A stretch of 5,964 nucleotides of DNA. It comes from Candidatus Heimdallarchaeota archaeon. GTDB lineage: Archaea; Asgardarchaeota; Heimdallarchaeia; Heimdallarchaeales; Heimdallarchaeaceae. The stretch spans positions 1 through 5,964 of the forward strand of contig DAOVRE010000116.1 in NCBI GenBank assembly GCA_030628305.1, read 5' to 3'. Both the position numbers and the translations under genes were made by a program. The notes beneath the pieces are model-generated. The model did not search any database, was not told the origin of the DNA, and saw nothing but the letters and a program-made list of their open reading frames with translations. Of this stretch, positions 66 to 3,205 are shown piece after piece. How positions within the stretch are numbered: position 1 is the first letter of the stretch; the number at the start of each line of letters is the position of its first letter.

Positions 66-1424
66 ATGAAAATTTTGTTTGACGAAACCCAAAAAGAAAG
101 AGGTCTTATTTTTGATAATTTTCGAAAATTAGCTGAAACACTTGAAGATTCAGGACATCAAGTCAACCGCTTAGACACATTTCCAATTAAATATACAGTA
201 ATTTCAAAACATGATATTCTTGTATTTCTATGTCCTGATGGTTCAAAATTGTATGGACATGAAGTTAAAGCACTCTTAAGATTTTTAGATGAGGGTGGTT
301 CTGTAGCAATTTTTGCTAATGCTGGTGGAGATAGAGGATTAAACACCAATCTGAATACACTTTTGAAGCATTTTGATATGGAAATTGTAGCAAACCAGAT
401 TTTCGATTATAAAAACTACGACTTAAAACTAGAAAGTAACCCAGTTATCAGTAAATTCTTCGACCATTCCATTACCAAAGGGATTAAAGATGTTACAATG
501 GTATCAGGATGTTCAATCAACATAGGAAAGAAAGGAATAGAACTAGCAAGAACATCTTCGGATAGTGACCCTCCAAGTGTAACAGTTTTAGCTATCGCTT
601 CTTATGGGTTAGGGACAGTTTTGGTTGGTGGATCTTATTTAATGTTTTCTGATTTAAAATCAGGTTTGAAACTGAGGGGCAATAAGAAATTAGCTACCAA
701 TATTTTCAACTTCATTTCGGAGGTACCAATGGGTGAAACTGAAGAAATTACTGAAGAAGAACCAGAACCAGAACCAAAAAAACCTAGTAAAACTTCTCTT
801 CAACAACCACCTGTTCCCGAAACACATGCTCCTATTCCTGCAGTCACTCCAACATCAATCGTTCAGGAACTAAAAAAAGAAATGAGAATAAAAGAGCCAA
901 AAGAGGAAAAAACAGAAACTAAACTCTCTAAAGATGATATCTATCGCGCAATTGCAATAATTCAAGATTTAGAAAAAGATATTTCTGAACTCAACATAGA
1001 AGATCTAGGTTATAGAGATATTCTTCTTACAGATATGGCAAGAAGAAAAGGCGTTGATTATTCCCAAGTTTTACCGTATTTAGAGAAAATTCGAGAGAAA
1101 GAGAAACGAAAAGGTGAAACCAAGAAGAAACAAGAACACAAAGATAGTAGTATCGATAAGTCTTCCATTCCTTTACCAACACAAGCTGATAGGTTTGAGC
1201 AAGAGGTACTAGTTTTTGATGAATCTTTGGAGGAAAAAATACAAACAAGCAGCCAAGTACCAGTAGTTTCTCAACATTTGCAAAAATCTGATTTAACAGA
1301 GGTTGTAGATGCAATAAAAGAACTAAAGAATAGTGTCGACGTTTTAAGTGCAAATCTCATTCATCTAATGAGTGAAATTGTTCTTGAAATAAAAGAGGGA
1401 AAGGGCAAGAAAAGAATATTCTAG
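66..1424 (+). CDS. IFT52/GldG-like (GIFT-domain) protein with disordered linker and helical C-terminal tail
   Basis: Soluble 452-residue protein with no signal peptide or membrane segment. Residues 1-220 look like the GIFT domain shared by eukaryotic IFT52 (an intraflagellar transport B subunit) and bacterial GldG. The resemblance lies in an opening ILFDE strand, FLDEGGSVAIF (73-83), GGDRGLNTNLNTLL (87-100) and GTVLVGGSYLMFSD (183-196). These match, in order, IFT52 stretches recalled as YLDTGGDVFVM, GGESRFDTNINFLL and GKLAVLGSCHMFSD. Residues 221-285 are a Glu/Pro/Lys-rich linker with an EPEPEP run. Residues 286-350 are a charged helical segment, 351-405 look disordered, and 406-445 form an amphipathic, probably coiled-coil helix before a basic tail. 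The domain is a non-enzymatic ligand- or protein-binding fold in its relatives, so a scaffold or adaptor role is inferred. The ATG is supported by AAGGTG five bases upstream. It is first in a tight operon with DNA ligase. The fold-family call is fairly firm; orthology to IFT52 is not established, and GldG-like or DUF4350-type relatives are the alternatives. Confidence 0.72.
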   Translation: MKILFDETQKERGLIFDNFRKLAETLEDSGHQVNRLDTFPIKYTVISKHDILVFLCPDGSKLYGHEVKALLRFLDEGGSVAIFANAGGDRGLNTNLNTLLKHFDMEIVANQIFDYKNYDLKLESNPVISKFFDHSITKGIKDVTMVSGCSINIGKKGIELARTSSDSDPPSVTVLAIASYGLGTVLVGGSYLMFSDLKSGLKLRGNKKLATNIFNFISEVPMGETEEITEEEPEPEPKKPSKTSLQQPPVPETHAPIPAVTPTSIVQELKKEMRIKEPKEEKTETKLSKDDIYRAIAIIQDLEKDISELNIEDLGYRDILLTDMARRKGVDYSQVLPYLEKIREKEKRKGETKKKQEHKDSSIDKSSIPLPTQADRFEQEVLVFDESLEEKIQTSSQVPVVSQHLQKSDLTEVVDAIKELKNSVDVLSANLIHLMSEIVLEIKEGKGKKRIF

Positions 1425-1435
1425 GATAGATTTAT

Positions 1436-3205
1436 GTGAAATTCAAAGAATTATCGCAGTGTTATTTCAAATTGGAAAAAACACGGAAAAATCTTGAAAT
1501 GGTCGACATTTTAGCAGAGACAATAAAAGATTCTGATTCTAAAGAGATCGGAAAAATTGCTCTCTTAACTCTAGGTAAACTGTATCCAGATTTTATTGGA
1601 ATTGAACTAATGCTAGCTGAAAGAATGGCAATTAAGTCCTTAGCTATAGCTACAGGTAAAAGTGATAAATCTGTTCAAACCCTACTAGATGAAATTGGTG
1701 ATTTAGGAAAAACAGCTCACCAGCTATTAGAAAAAAAACCTCAATCAACTCTATTAGCATTTACTAAACAAGAAGAACGGCAAGAGCTAGATGTTCTAGA
1801 CATATGGGGAATTTTCGATTCTATAGCGAAAATGTCTGGAGAAGGATCATCAGACAGGAAGATTAGAACACTATCTGGTCTTATTTCTAAAGTTTCCCCA
1901 CTGGAAGCAAGATACATAATTAGGATGGTTTGCGGTCAATTAAGATTAGGAGTTGCAACTCAATTACTACTAGAAGCTATGTCTCTAGCTAAAACAGGCA
2001 CTAGAGAAAACAAAGATATTCTAGAAAGAGCTTATAACAGGACGTCGGATATAGAGTTTGTTGCATCGTCACTTTTTTCACAAGGTTTAGAGAGTATAAA
2101 AATAGTTGAAGTGAAAATTTTCAATCCTATAAGAGTCATGCTAGCACAAAGAGTTTCAAGCTCAGAAGAATTGCTGGAAAGATTCGGAGGGAAGGTTTCG
2201 CTAGAGTACAAATATGATGGATTGCGTGTTCAAATACATAAAAGGGGCTCAAAAATCAAGTTGTTTTCCAGAAAACCTGAAGATATCACACACCAATTCC
2301 CTGATGTCATTGAATTCATTAATGATGCTGCCAAAGAAGATGAGTTCATCATCGAGGGAGAAATTGTTGCTTATGATTTACAGAAAGACAAAATACTACC
2401 TTTTCAACATGTTTCACAAAGGAAAAGAAAGCACGATATCGACAAGAAAATCGGAGAGGTTCCAGTAAGAGTTTATCTTTTTGATTCACTTTTTGCTTTT
2501 GGGAAATCAGAGATAGAAAGCGATTATCTAAACAGGAGGAAGTTAATGGAAAAACTTGTTGAGACGAATGATAACATACAATTTTCTCATCAGACAATTG
2601 CAGAAAATTCAGATGATATCGAAAAATTCTTTCAACAAGCTCTAGAAAACGGCTGTGAAGGAGTAATGGGAAAGGATATTTCAAAAGGTTCTTTCTATCA
2701 AGCTGGAGCGAGAGGTTGGAATTGGGTAAAATACAAAGCTGATTATGTTGACAAACTATCAGATTCATTCGATCTTGTCATGTTAGGTGCTGATTATGGT
2801 AAAGGCAAGAGAGCGGGGTTGTATGGTACTTTCCTAGTTGGTTGCTTTGATCAGGACGATGCTGTATATAGAACGTTTACAAAAGTTGCCACCGGTTTTA
2901 GTGATAAGAACCTTCAATATTTTTACGATGTTCTCAAGAAATTGGAAAGAGCAAAACCCAAGGAAGTTGTAAGTGACACAGAATGCCAAATCTGGTTTGA
3001 ACCTTCTATAGTCATTGAAGTAACAGGAGCAGAAATTACCGTAAGTCAGATTCATACTTGTACAAGAGGTCTTTTGAGTGAAAAAACAGATGGATTAGCT
3101 CTTCGTTTTCCAAGATTCACAGGAAGGATTGTTGAAGATAAAGCTCCTGAAGACTCTACTTCAAATCAAGAAATACACACAATATATTTAAATCAAAAAA
3201 AATAA
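1436..3205 (+). CDS. lig: ATP-dependent DNA ligase, archaeal type
   Basis: Seals nicks between Okazaki fragments and in repair, using ATP to form a ligase-AMP intermediate. At 589 residues it has the usual archaeal length and all three domains. The N-terminal DNA-binding domain (about 1-225) contains RYIIRMVCGQLRLGVA (159-174). The adenylation domain has motif I KYDGLR (259-264, catalytic Lys259), motif III EFIIEGEIVAYD (303-314), motif IIIa VYLFDSL (346-352), motif IV EGVMGKD (408-414, Lys413) and motif V WVKYKADY (430-437). The OB-fold domain ends with motif VI RFPRF (557-561). All key residues are present, so it should be active. QSTLLAF (103-109) sits where archaeal ligases carry a PCNA-binding box and is a partial match. 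The start is GTG; an ATG two bases earlier is followed at once by a stop. AGGAT at 1423-1427 is a weak ribosome site overlapping the upstream stop codon. The 11-base gap to the IFT52-like gene implies co-transcription, perhaps translational coupling. Confidence 0.97.
   Translation: MKFKELSQCYFKLEKTRKNLEMVDILAETIKDSDSKEIGKIALLTLGKLYPDFIGIELMLAERMAIKSLAIATGKSDKSVQTLLDEIGDLGKTAHQLLEKKPQSTLLAFTKQEERQELDVLDIWGIFDSIAKMSGEGSSDRKIRTLSGLISKVSPLEARYIIRMVCGQLRLGVATQLLLEAMSLAKTGTRENKDILERAYNRTSDIEFVASSLFSQGLESIKIVEVKIFNPIRVMLAQRVSSSEELLERFGGKVSLEYKYDGLRVQIHKRGSKIKLFSRKPEDITHQFPDVIEFINDAAKEDEFIIEGEIVAYDLQKDKILPFQHVSQRKRKHDIDKKIGEVPVRVYLFDSLFAFGKSEIESDYLNRRKLMEKLVETNDNIQFSHQTIAENSDDIEKFFQQALENGCEGVMGKDISKGSFYQAGARGWNWVKYKADYVDKLSDSFDLVMLGADYGKGKRAGLYGTFLVGCFDQDDAVYRTFTKVATGFSDKNLQYFYDVLKKLERAKPKEVVSDTECQIWFEPSIVIEVTGAEITVSQIHTCTRGLLSEKTDGLALRFPRFTGRIVEDKAPEDSTSNQEIHTIYLNQKK

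Follow-up and report, generated by a model that had tools for sequence, protein, structure and literature searches.

The stretch of DNA analysed here in full (the window) spans 5,964 nucleotides of a Candidatus Heimdallarchaeota genome (contig DAOVRE010000116.1), and its first gene encodes a 452-residue protein that opens with a GIFT domain, the kind of domain that stands at the N terminus of the intraflagellar transport (IFT) protein IFT52. An earlier reading of the sequence alone had suggested that the DNA is Asgard, and this was borne out, as 15 of 15 related loci are titled Heimdallarchaeota or Heimdallarchaeum. Heimdallarchaeota isolate HM4_B41 shares 98.5% DNA identity with the window over 5,133 bases, and CSMAG_1088 shares 88.7% over 5,975 bases. 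The gene and the parts of its product, including values of the predicted local distance difference test (pLDDT), are as follows.

66..1424, + strand: Asgard GIFT–coiled-coil protein, 452 residues; open reading frame from ATG to stop; Pfam IFT52_GIFT
66..725, + strand: GIFT domain, residues 1-220
282..314, + strand: motif 1, FLDEGGSVAIF, residues 73-83
324..365, + strand: motif 2, GGDRGLNTNLNTLL, residues 87-100; holds the common GG[DE]x4TNxN signature
612..653, + strand: motif 3, GTVLVGGSYLMFSD, residues 183-196
729..920, + strand: predicted disordered linker, residues 222-285; pLDDT <50 at 222-261 and 273-285
930..1142, + strand: helical region, residues 289-359; pLDDT 79-88 over 291-350; conserved in Heimdall relatives (alignment A1)
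1272..1406, + strand: long C-terminal helix, residues 403-447, predicted coiled coil; pLDDT 85-92 over 411-440

Family members share this layout: a start resembling FDETQxERG, the GIFT head, a charged or proline-rich linker and a helical end. The close relatives P0001-P0049 are all of this type and 418-474 residues long, with the exception of P0010 at 266. The C-terminal helix reappears in a separate model of the back half of the protein (predicted template modelling score 0.36). That half has no Pfam match at E<=1, and Foldseek returned nothing for its separate model at E<=0.001, on which ground we reject a known fold for it, a result that does not in itself show a new one. Matches to DotF/IcmG (E 0.0034) and to further coiled-coil proteins are regarded as chance. 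Two cysteines, C63 and C156 in the numbering of a relative from another Asgard genome (L024; alignment A5), are near-invariant in the Asgard GIFT head and missing from the aligned IFT52 chains.

The match to IFT52 and its limits

The sequence-only reading had pointed to three motifs in common with IFT52, and all three are present in the window protein. In mouse IFT52 (PDB 5fms), their counterparts are YLDSGGDILVM at 80-90, GGESRFDTNINFLL at 94-107 and GKLAVLGSCHMFSD from 213, with positions counted by hand; the earlier reading had given the second and third correctly, the first slightly wrongly as YLDTGGDVFVM. Motif order is kept, as is the spacing between motifs 1 and 2, but the stretch from motif 2 to motif 3 is longer by about 23 residues in the mouse protein. 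The Pfam IFT52_GIFT model (PF23355) matches the window protein at E 8.9e-11 (41.8 bits, cut-off 27.2), with its best stretch at residues 3-138. A phmmer search of the PDB reaches E 1e-6, and IFT52 is the only molecule among the three sequences at E<=10. With a 13-row Asgard GIFT profile, IFT52 is found in the PDB at E 3e-25 and the next match lies at E 0.047. IFT52 thus ranks first by Pfam, PDB sequence and fold; we reject a ThuA-like family, or any other of Rossmann type, as the leading hit, since IFT52 leads both the fold and the PDB profile searches. The match is far beyond chance, and common ancestry of the domain with that of IFT52 is well supported.

The later parts of IFT52 do not accompany the head. 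Neither IFT52_central (PF23352), which binds IFT88/IFT70, nor Itf52_C (PF21178), which binds IFT46, was found in the window protein at E<=1 or in four relatives (L024, P0050, P0064 and L026) at E<=10; two IFT52 rows taken as a positive control (P0095 and P0136) both score with these domains. Our own hidden Markov model of the back half, made from 14 IFT52 sequences, gave a best E of 2.4 among 80 Asgard rows. The IFT46 profile (PF12317) exceeded its cut-off in none of 11 related Asgard genomes, three of which had weak matches (E 0.11-0.46); sub-threshold matches at E<=1 turned up in two of 14 controls as well, and the closest genome, G001, had none. We therefore reject an archaeal IFT52 proper, because the central and C-terminal domains are missing and IFT46 stays below cut-off in the 11 genomes. 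The earlier reading is partly supported: the likeness of the GIFT head to IFT52 is borne out, and a specific sister relation to IFT52 is one of several that the data allow.

That reading had also inferred that the protein is closer to IFT52 than to bacterial GldG. A model of 18 eukaryotic IFT52 proteins, run on 135 proteins, gave 90.2 bits for L024 and 56-70 for four Thor-type relatives (L034, L037, L040 and L051). The window protein scored 35.8, with Heimdall-type relatives down to 29.5, and other Asgard GIFT types reached 70.8 (L041) and 60.4 (L032). The GldG rows scored 38.0 (L021, above the window protein), 27.7, 22.6 and 20.3, a DUF6421 protein 22.5 and a haloarchaeal DUF4350 protein -0.8. 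HHalign scores against an IFT52 profile were 149 for the L090 group, 133 for the Loki-type, 121 for the Thor-type, 118 for the Jord-type, 107 for the Heimdall group and 90 for L094, as compared with 89-133 for other Asgard GIFT types, 79-80 for GldG, 80 for S1P-like, 64 for DUF6421 and 29 for DUF4350, in groups of unequal size (1 to 6 rows) with few non-Asgard rows. The GG[DE]x4TNxN signature occurs in 119 of 120 rows of an IFT52 search (P0095-P0214) and 90 of 92 of the relatives P0001-P0092. It is found in 28 of 80 rows of a wider Asgard set (68 with a looser pattern), in two of nine other Asgard GIFT rows and in none of seven GldG/DUF/S1P-like rows. By these scores the family, taken together, ranks higher than the few GldG, DUF6421 and DUF4350 proteins sampled; this holds for the group profiles, while the single-protein scores overlap (35.8 for the window protein against 38.0 for one GldG).

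The overlap bears on a reading in which this is an ordinary GldG/DUF4350-type protein and the IFT52 label an accident of Pfam model choice. The GIFT fold is common to ABC_transp_aux, DUF4350, ThuA and OST48, and archaeal rows may be present in the Pfam seed. We nevertheless consider this explanation quite improbable: relatives such as L024 and the four Thor-type rows score far higher than the other GldG rows, DUF6421 or DUF4350, the Asgard family forms a separate clade, and the hydrophobic segments of L021-L023, L055 and L056 have no counterpart above threshold in the window protein. Its maximum 19-residue hydropathy is 1.6 (threshold 1.8), against 2.66 in the GldG row L055, and by this measure it has no membrane anchor.

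Our second tree, built from 48 rows and 246 columns, gathers the Asgard family into a single clade (support 93/93) apart from the GldG rows and IFT52 into another (100/100); the branches joining them are unresolved. Both trees carry long-branch warnings (D_L054, B_L041, B_L025 and GldG rows included), and four rows of the first (S_L027, D_L056, C_L021 and A_L105) were omitted from the second. The archaeal clade next to IFT52 that the sequence-only reading looked for is absent from the free tree, but the approximately unbiased (AU) test does not reject such a grouping (p 0.31). It equally allows IFT52 to join the SHNN-type (0.36), L032/L045 (0.21), L041 (0.31), GldG (0.39) or DUF6421 (0.44), and marginally rejects IFT52 with the Heimdall-type alone (0.043). 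Sequence similarity thus favours the Asgard family as kin of IFT52, while phylogeny leaves the sister group undecided.

These results frame the possibility that eukaryotic IFT52 descends directly from the Asgard family; its GIFT head would have been inherited and its IFT88/70- and IFT46-binding parts would have been gained later. First rank in the Pfam, PDB and fold searches, the group scores (90-149 for six family groups versus 29-80 for GldG, DUF6421, DUF4350 and S1P-like), the shared signature and the AU result all speak for it. We still find direct descent doubtful, given the separation of the two clades in the free tree, the other groupings that the AU test permits, the scores of other Asgard GIFT types and a narrow sampling: the IFT52 rows are from green algae and vertebrates, and GldG, DUF6421 and haloarchaeal DUF4350 together make six rows, two of them Asgard GldG. 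Among the best 120 of 1,448 proteins at E<=10 with an IFT52 query, the named ones are eukaryotes and the unnamed ones are labelled IFT52_GIFT, so a closer bacterial protein could hide among the remainder.

Distribution and gene order

A search of 5.8 billion proteins with the window GIFT domain found 94 at E<=1e-3, one of which (P0094) is apparently the window's own. All named organisms among them are labelled Asgard except P0084 (Zixibacteria) and P0089 (Bathyarchaeia), which are 76% and 88% identical to other Asgard family members and likely come from mis-binned contigs. With L024 as query, 49 proteins of the same kind were found, itself included, and the next lay at E 0.55. The 13-row profile has matches at E<=1e-15 in 191 of 227 Asgard genomes, and in 157 the best match is at E<=1e-50 (by hand count of the table); none of the 157 falls among G030-G054 and G062-G074, where the family may be absent or the assembly incomplete. 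The Pfam IFT52 model exceeds its cut-off in 209 of the 227, a count to which further GIFT types contribute, GldG-like membrane proteins among them. Of 14 non-Asgard control genomes, none has a PF23355 match at E<=1e-3 and seven have one at E<=10, none over cut-off. The soluble GIFT–coiled-coil family is widespread in Asgards.

Our lineage names Jord-, Thor- and Loki-type are our own reading, and only Jord-type is anchored: two proteins, P0216 and P0217, carry the name Jordarchaeaceae, and the first of them clusters with L099, L100 and L093. The remaining names are guesses. A viral origin is rejected, as no relative appeared among 51 pattern matches in viral contigs and the best PHROG match has E 0.098; three BFVD matches at E<=0.001 have the fold alone in common. 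In plasmid records, the window protein matches solely a Nonomuraea DUF6421 protein (E 4e-3) and IFT52 solely one from Tsukamurella (E 8); phage records hold one chance-level match, for IFT52 (E 7). One open reading frame of another Asgard genome (L025, in G080) places, by eye, a GIFT domain before regions like protein-isoaspartate methyltransferase and CHAT.

Two further genes of the window follow the GIFT gene.

1436..3205, + strand: ATP-dependent DNA ligase; Pfam DNA_ligase_A_N/M/C; TIGR00574
3223..3792, + strand: 189-residue protein, third gene of the cluster; no Pfam match over cut-off

The ligase starts with GTG at 1436, 11 bases beyond the GIFT stop and on the same strand. The 189-residue protein has a weak match, far below cut-off, to the NCBIfam family LIMLP_15305.

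We surveyed 81 regions, and the GIFT gene is present in 80 (it is missing from L156); L087 is almost identical to the window. Ligase adjacency occurs in 24 regions, exclusively Heimdall-type: the ligase adjoins the GIFT gene in 24 of 25 such loci (in the last one the contig stops), is encoded on its strand in 23 of the 24, and is followed by the 189-residue gene in 22. In other lineages, genes at most five away include DNA polymerase B in 25 loci, a Rad50-like gene in 23 and an Mre11-like one (metallophosphoesterase) in 19; 22 loci have an adjoining HIT gene. Loki-type loci have an adjoining nucleotidyltransferase (18) and a nearby GPN-type ATPase (15). Neighbours were named from Pfam scans of one to three members per cluster, and intergenic gaps are approximate because open reading frame calling clipped some starts, that of the window ligase included.

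A scaffold reading of the GIFT–coiled-coil protein

We propose that the 452-residue protein joins an IFT52-type GIFT head to a predicted helical tail and is a soluble scaffold that serves DNA maintenance and not cilium-like transport, a reading to which we give a probability of about 0.5. DNA replication or repair is, tentatively, the likeliest setting, because of the kept placement next to the ligase in the Heimdall-type and near polymerase B and the Rad50/Mre11-like pair in another lineage. The head, of GATase1-like fold, would be non-enzymatic and would serve as a docking site for another protein or a small ligand; by eye, in comparison with GATase1 proteins, the usual nucleophile position is not a conserved cysteine. 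Beyond the flexible linker, the coiled-coil tail would bring copies together in pairs or bind a further partner. Within IFT trains, IFT52 contacts IFT-B2 through its GIFT domain and IFT88/70 and IFT46 through its later parts (PMC7561706, PMC10191852), which by analogy only makes a docking role for the Asgard head plausible.

Several points weigh against this proposal. No domain match assigns a function, and the role is drawn from sequence and gene order. With the eukaryotic IFT52 model the window protein scores below L024 and below one GldG row, some Heimdall-type relatives score lower still, and other Asgard GIFT types (L041, L032/L045) match IFT52 as strongly as most of the family does. The coiled coil is a prediction based only on a model of the monomer. 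The DNA setting varies by lineage, is missing from Loki-type loci, and may be chance order retained by descent.

Gene order also suggests a different assignment, to the Asgard actin cytoskeleton or small-GTPase machinery rather than DNA maintenance. An ARPC4-like (Arp2/3 20-kDa subunit) gene adjoins the GIFT gene in six of six Jord-type loci (L099, L100, L093 and three more) and no other ARPC4 match at E<=0.01 exists in any of the six genomes, and a Gtr1/RagA-like GTPase gene adjoins in one Loki-type locus (L101). The ARPC4-like gene is, however, on the opposite strand in all six, and this neighbourhood is confined to one lineage; ARPC4 lies elsewhere in G001 and G005 and has no match in seven of 15 genomes. 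We regard this assignment as unlikely.

On the scaffold reading, an ancestral soluble Asgard protein (of DNA replication or repair, with an ARPC4-like gene beside it in one lineage) could have given eukaryotes the GIFT head of IFT52, a step we hold possible but on the unlikely side. If so, part of the ciliary transport scaffold would be older than cilia and descended from an Asgard housekeeping protein. An Asgard-wide soluble family that is, as a group, nearer to IFT52 than the compared GldG-type proteins is a tangible candidate for the source of that domain, and the genes around it point to an original function outside transport. To our knowledge, the pre-ciliary source of IFT proteins is an open question. 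In the open-licence literature searched, a scope outside which most subscription papers and bioRxiv preprints lie, we found no claim of an archaeal IFT52. UniRef already labels one member (P0047) 'IFT52 GI...', so the domain match is on a database record; new beyond that label are how widely the family occurs, how its proteins are built and which genes surround it.

Comparison with known GIFT-fold proteins

Among eukaryotic proteins, OST48/Wbp1 and site-1 protease are membrane or lumenal. The N-terminal domain of OST48/Wbp1 and the GIFT-like domain of site-1 protease have Z-scores clearly below that of IFT52, and neither protein is among the nine PDB sequences that the family profile retrieves at E<=10. 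OST48 (PF03345) has no match in the window protein at E<=1 and 30.3 bits in P0050 (cut-off 36); the ThuA-like/GATase1 model (PF06283) likewise has none at E<=1 and 26.2 bits in L024 (cut-off 33.4).

The DUF6421 protein of Nonomuraea begins similarly, with VLFDEAHSES near the Asgard ILFDETQKER, but DUF6421 has a different C-terminal domain and a lower group score against IFT52. The Nonomuraea protein (L054, 2486-4609, + strand) opens with a GIFT-like region (DUF4350 E 2e-9). The DUF4350 model (PF14258) makes a GIFT-like match to the window protein at E 0.006 (17.2 bits, below the cut-off of 30.4) and exceeds its cut-off in P0050 and P0064 of the same family; the haloarchaeal L056 of this type carries hydrophobic segments.

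GldG/ABC_transp_aux (PF09822) belongs to the same fold family and matches weakly (E 2.8e-4, 20.7 bits, below the cut-off of 34.7). The GldG rows L021-L023 and L055 have hydrophobic segments, whereas the window protein has none above threshold, and none of the seven window proteins scanned with Pfam has an ABC transporter domain. The sub-threshold PF09822 match and the group scores disfavour an ordinary GldG, despite the single-score overlap with L021. The closest known counterpart is the N-terminal GIFT domain of IFT52 (OSM-6; PDB 5fmr, 5fms, 8bd7), a subunit that spans the IFT-B1 complex (PMC10191852); the Asgard protein differs from the IFT52 rows inspected in its FDETQxERG start.
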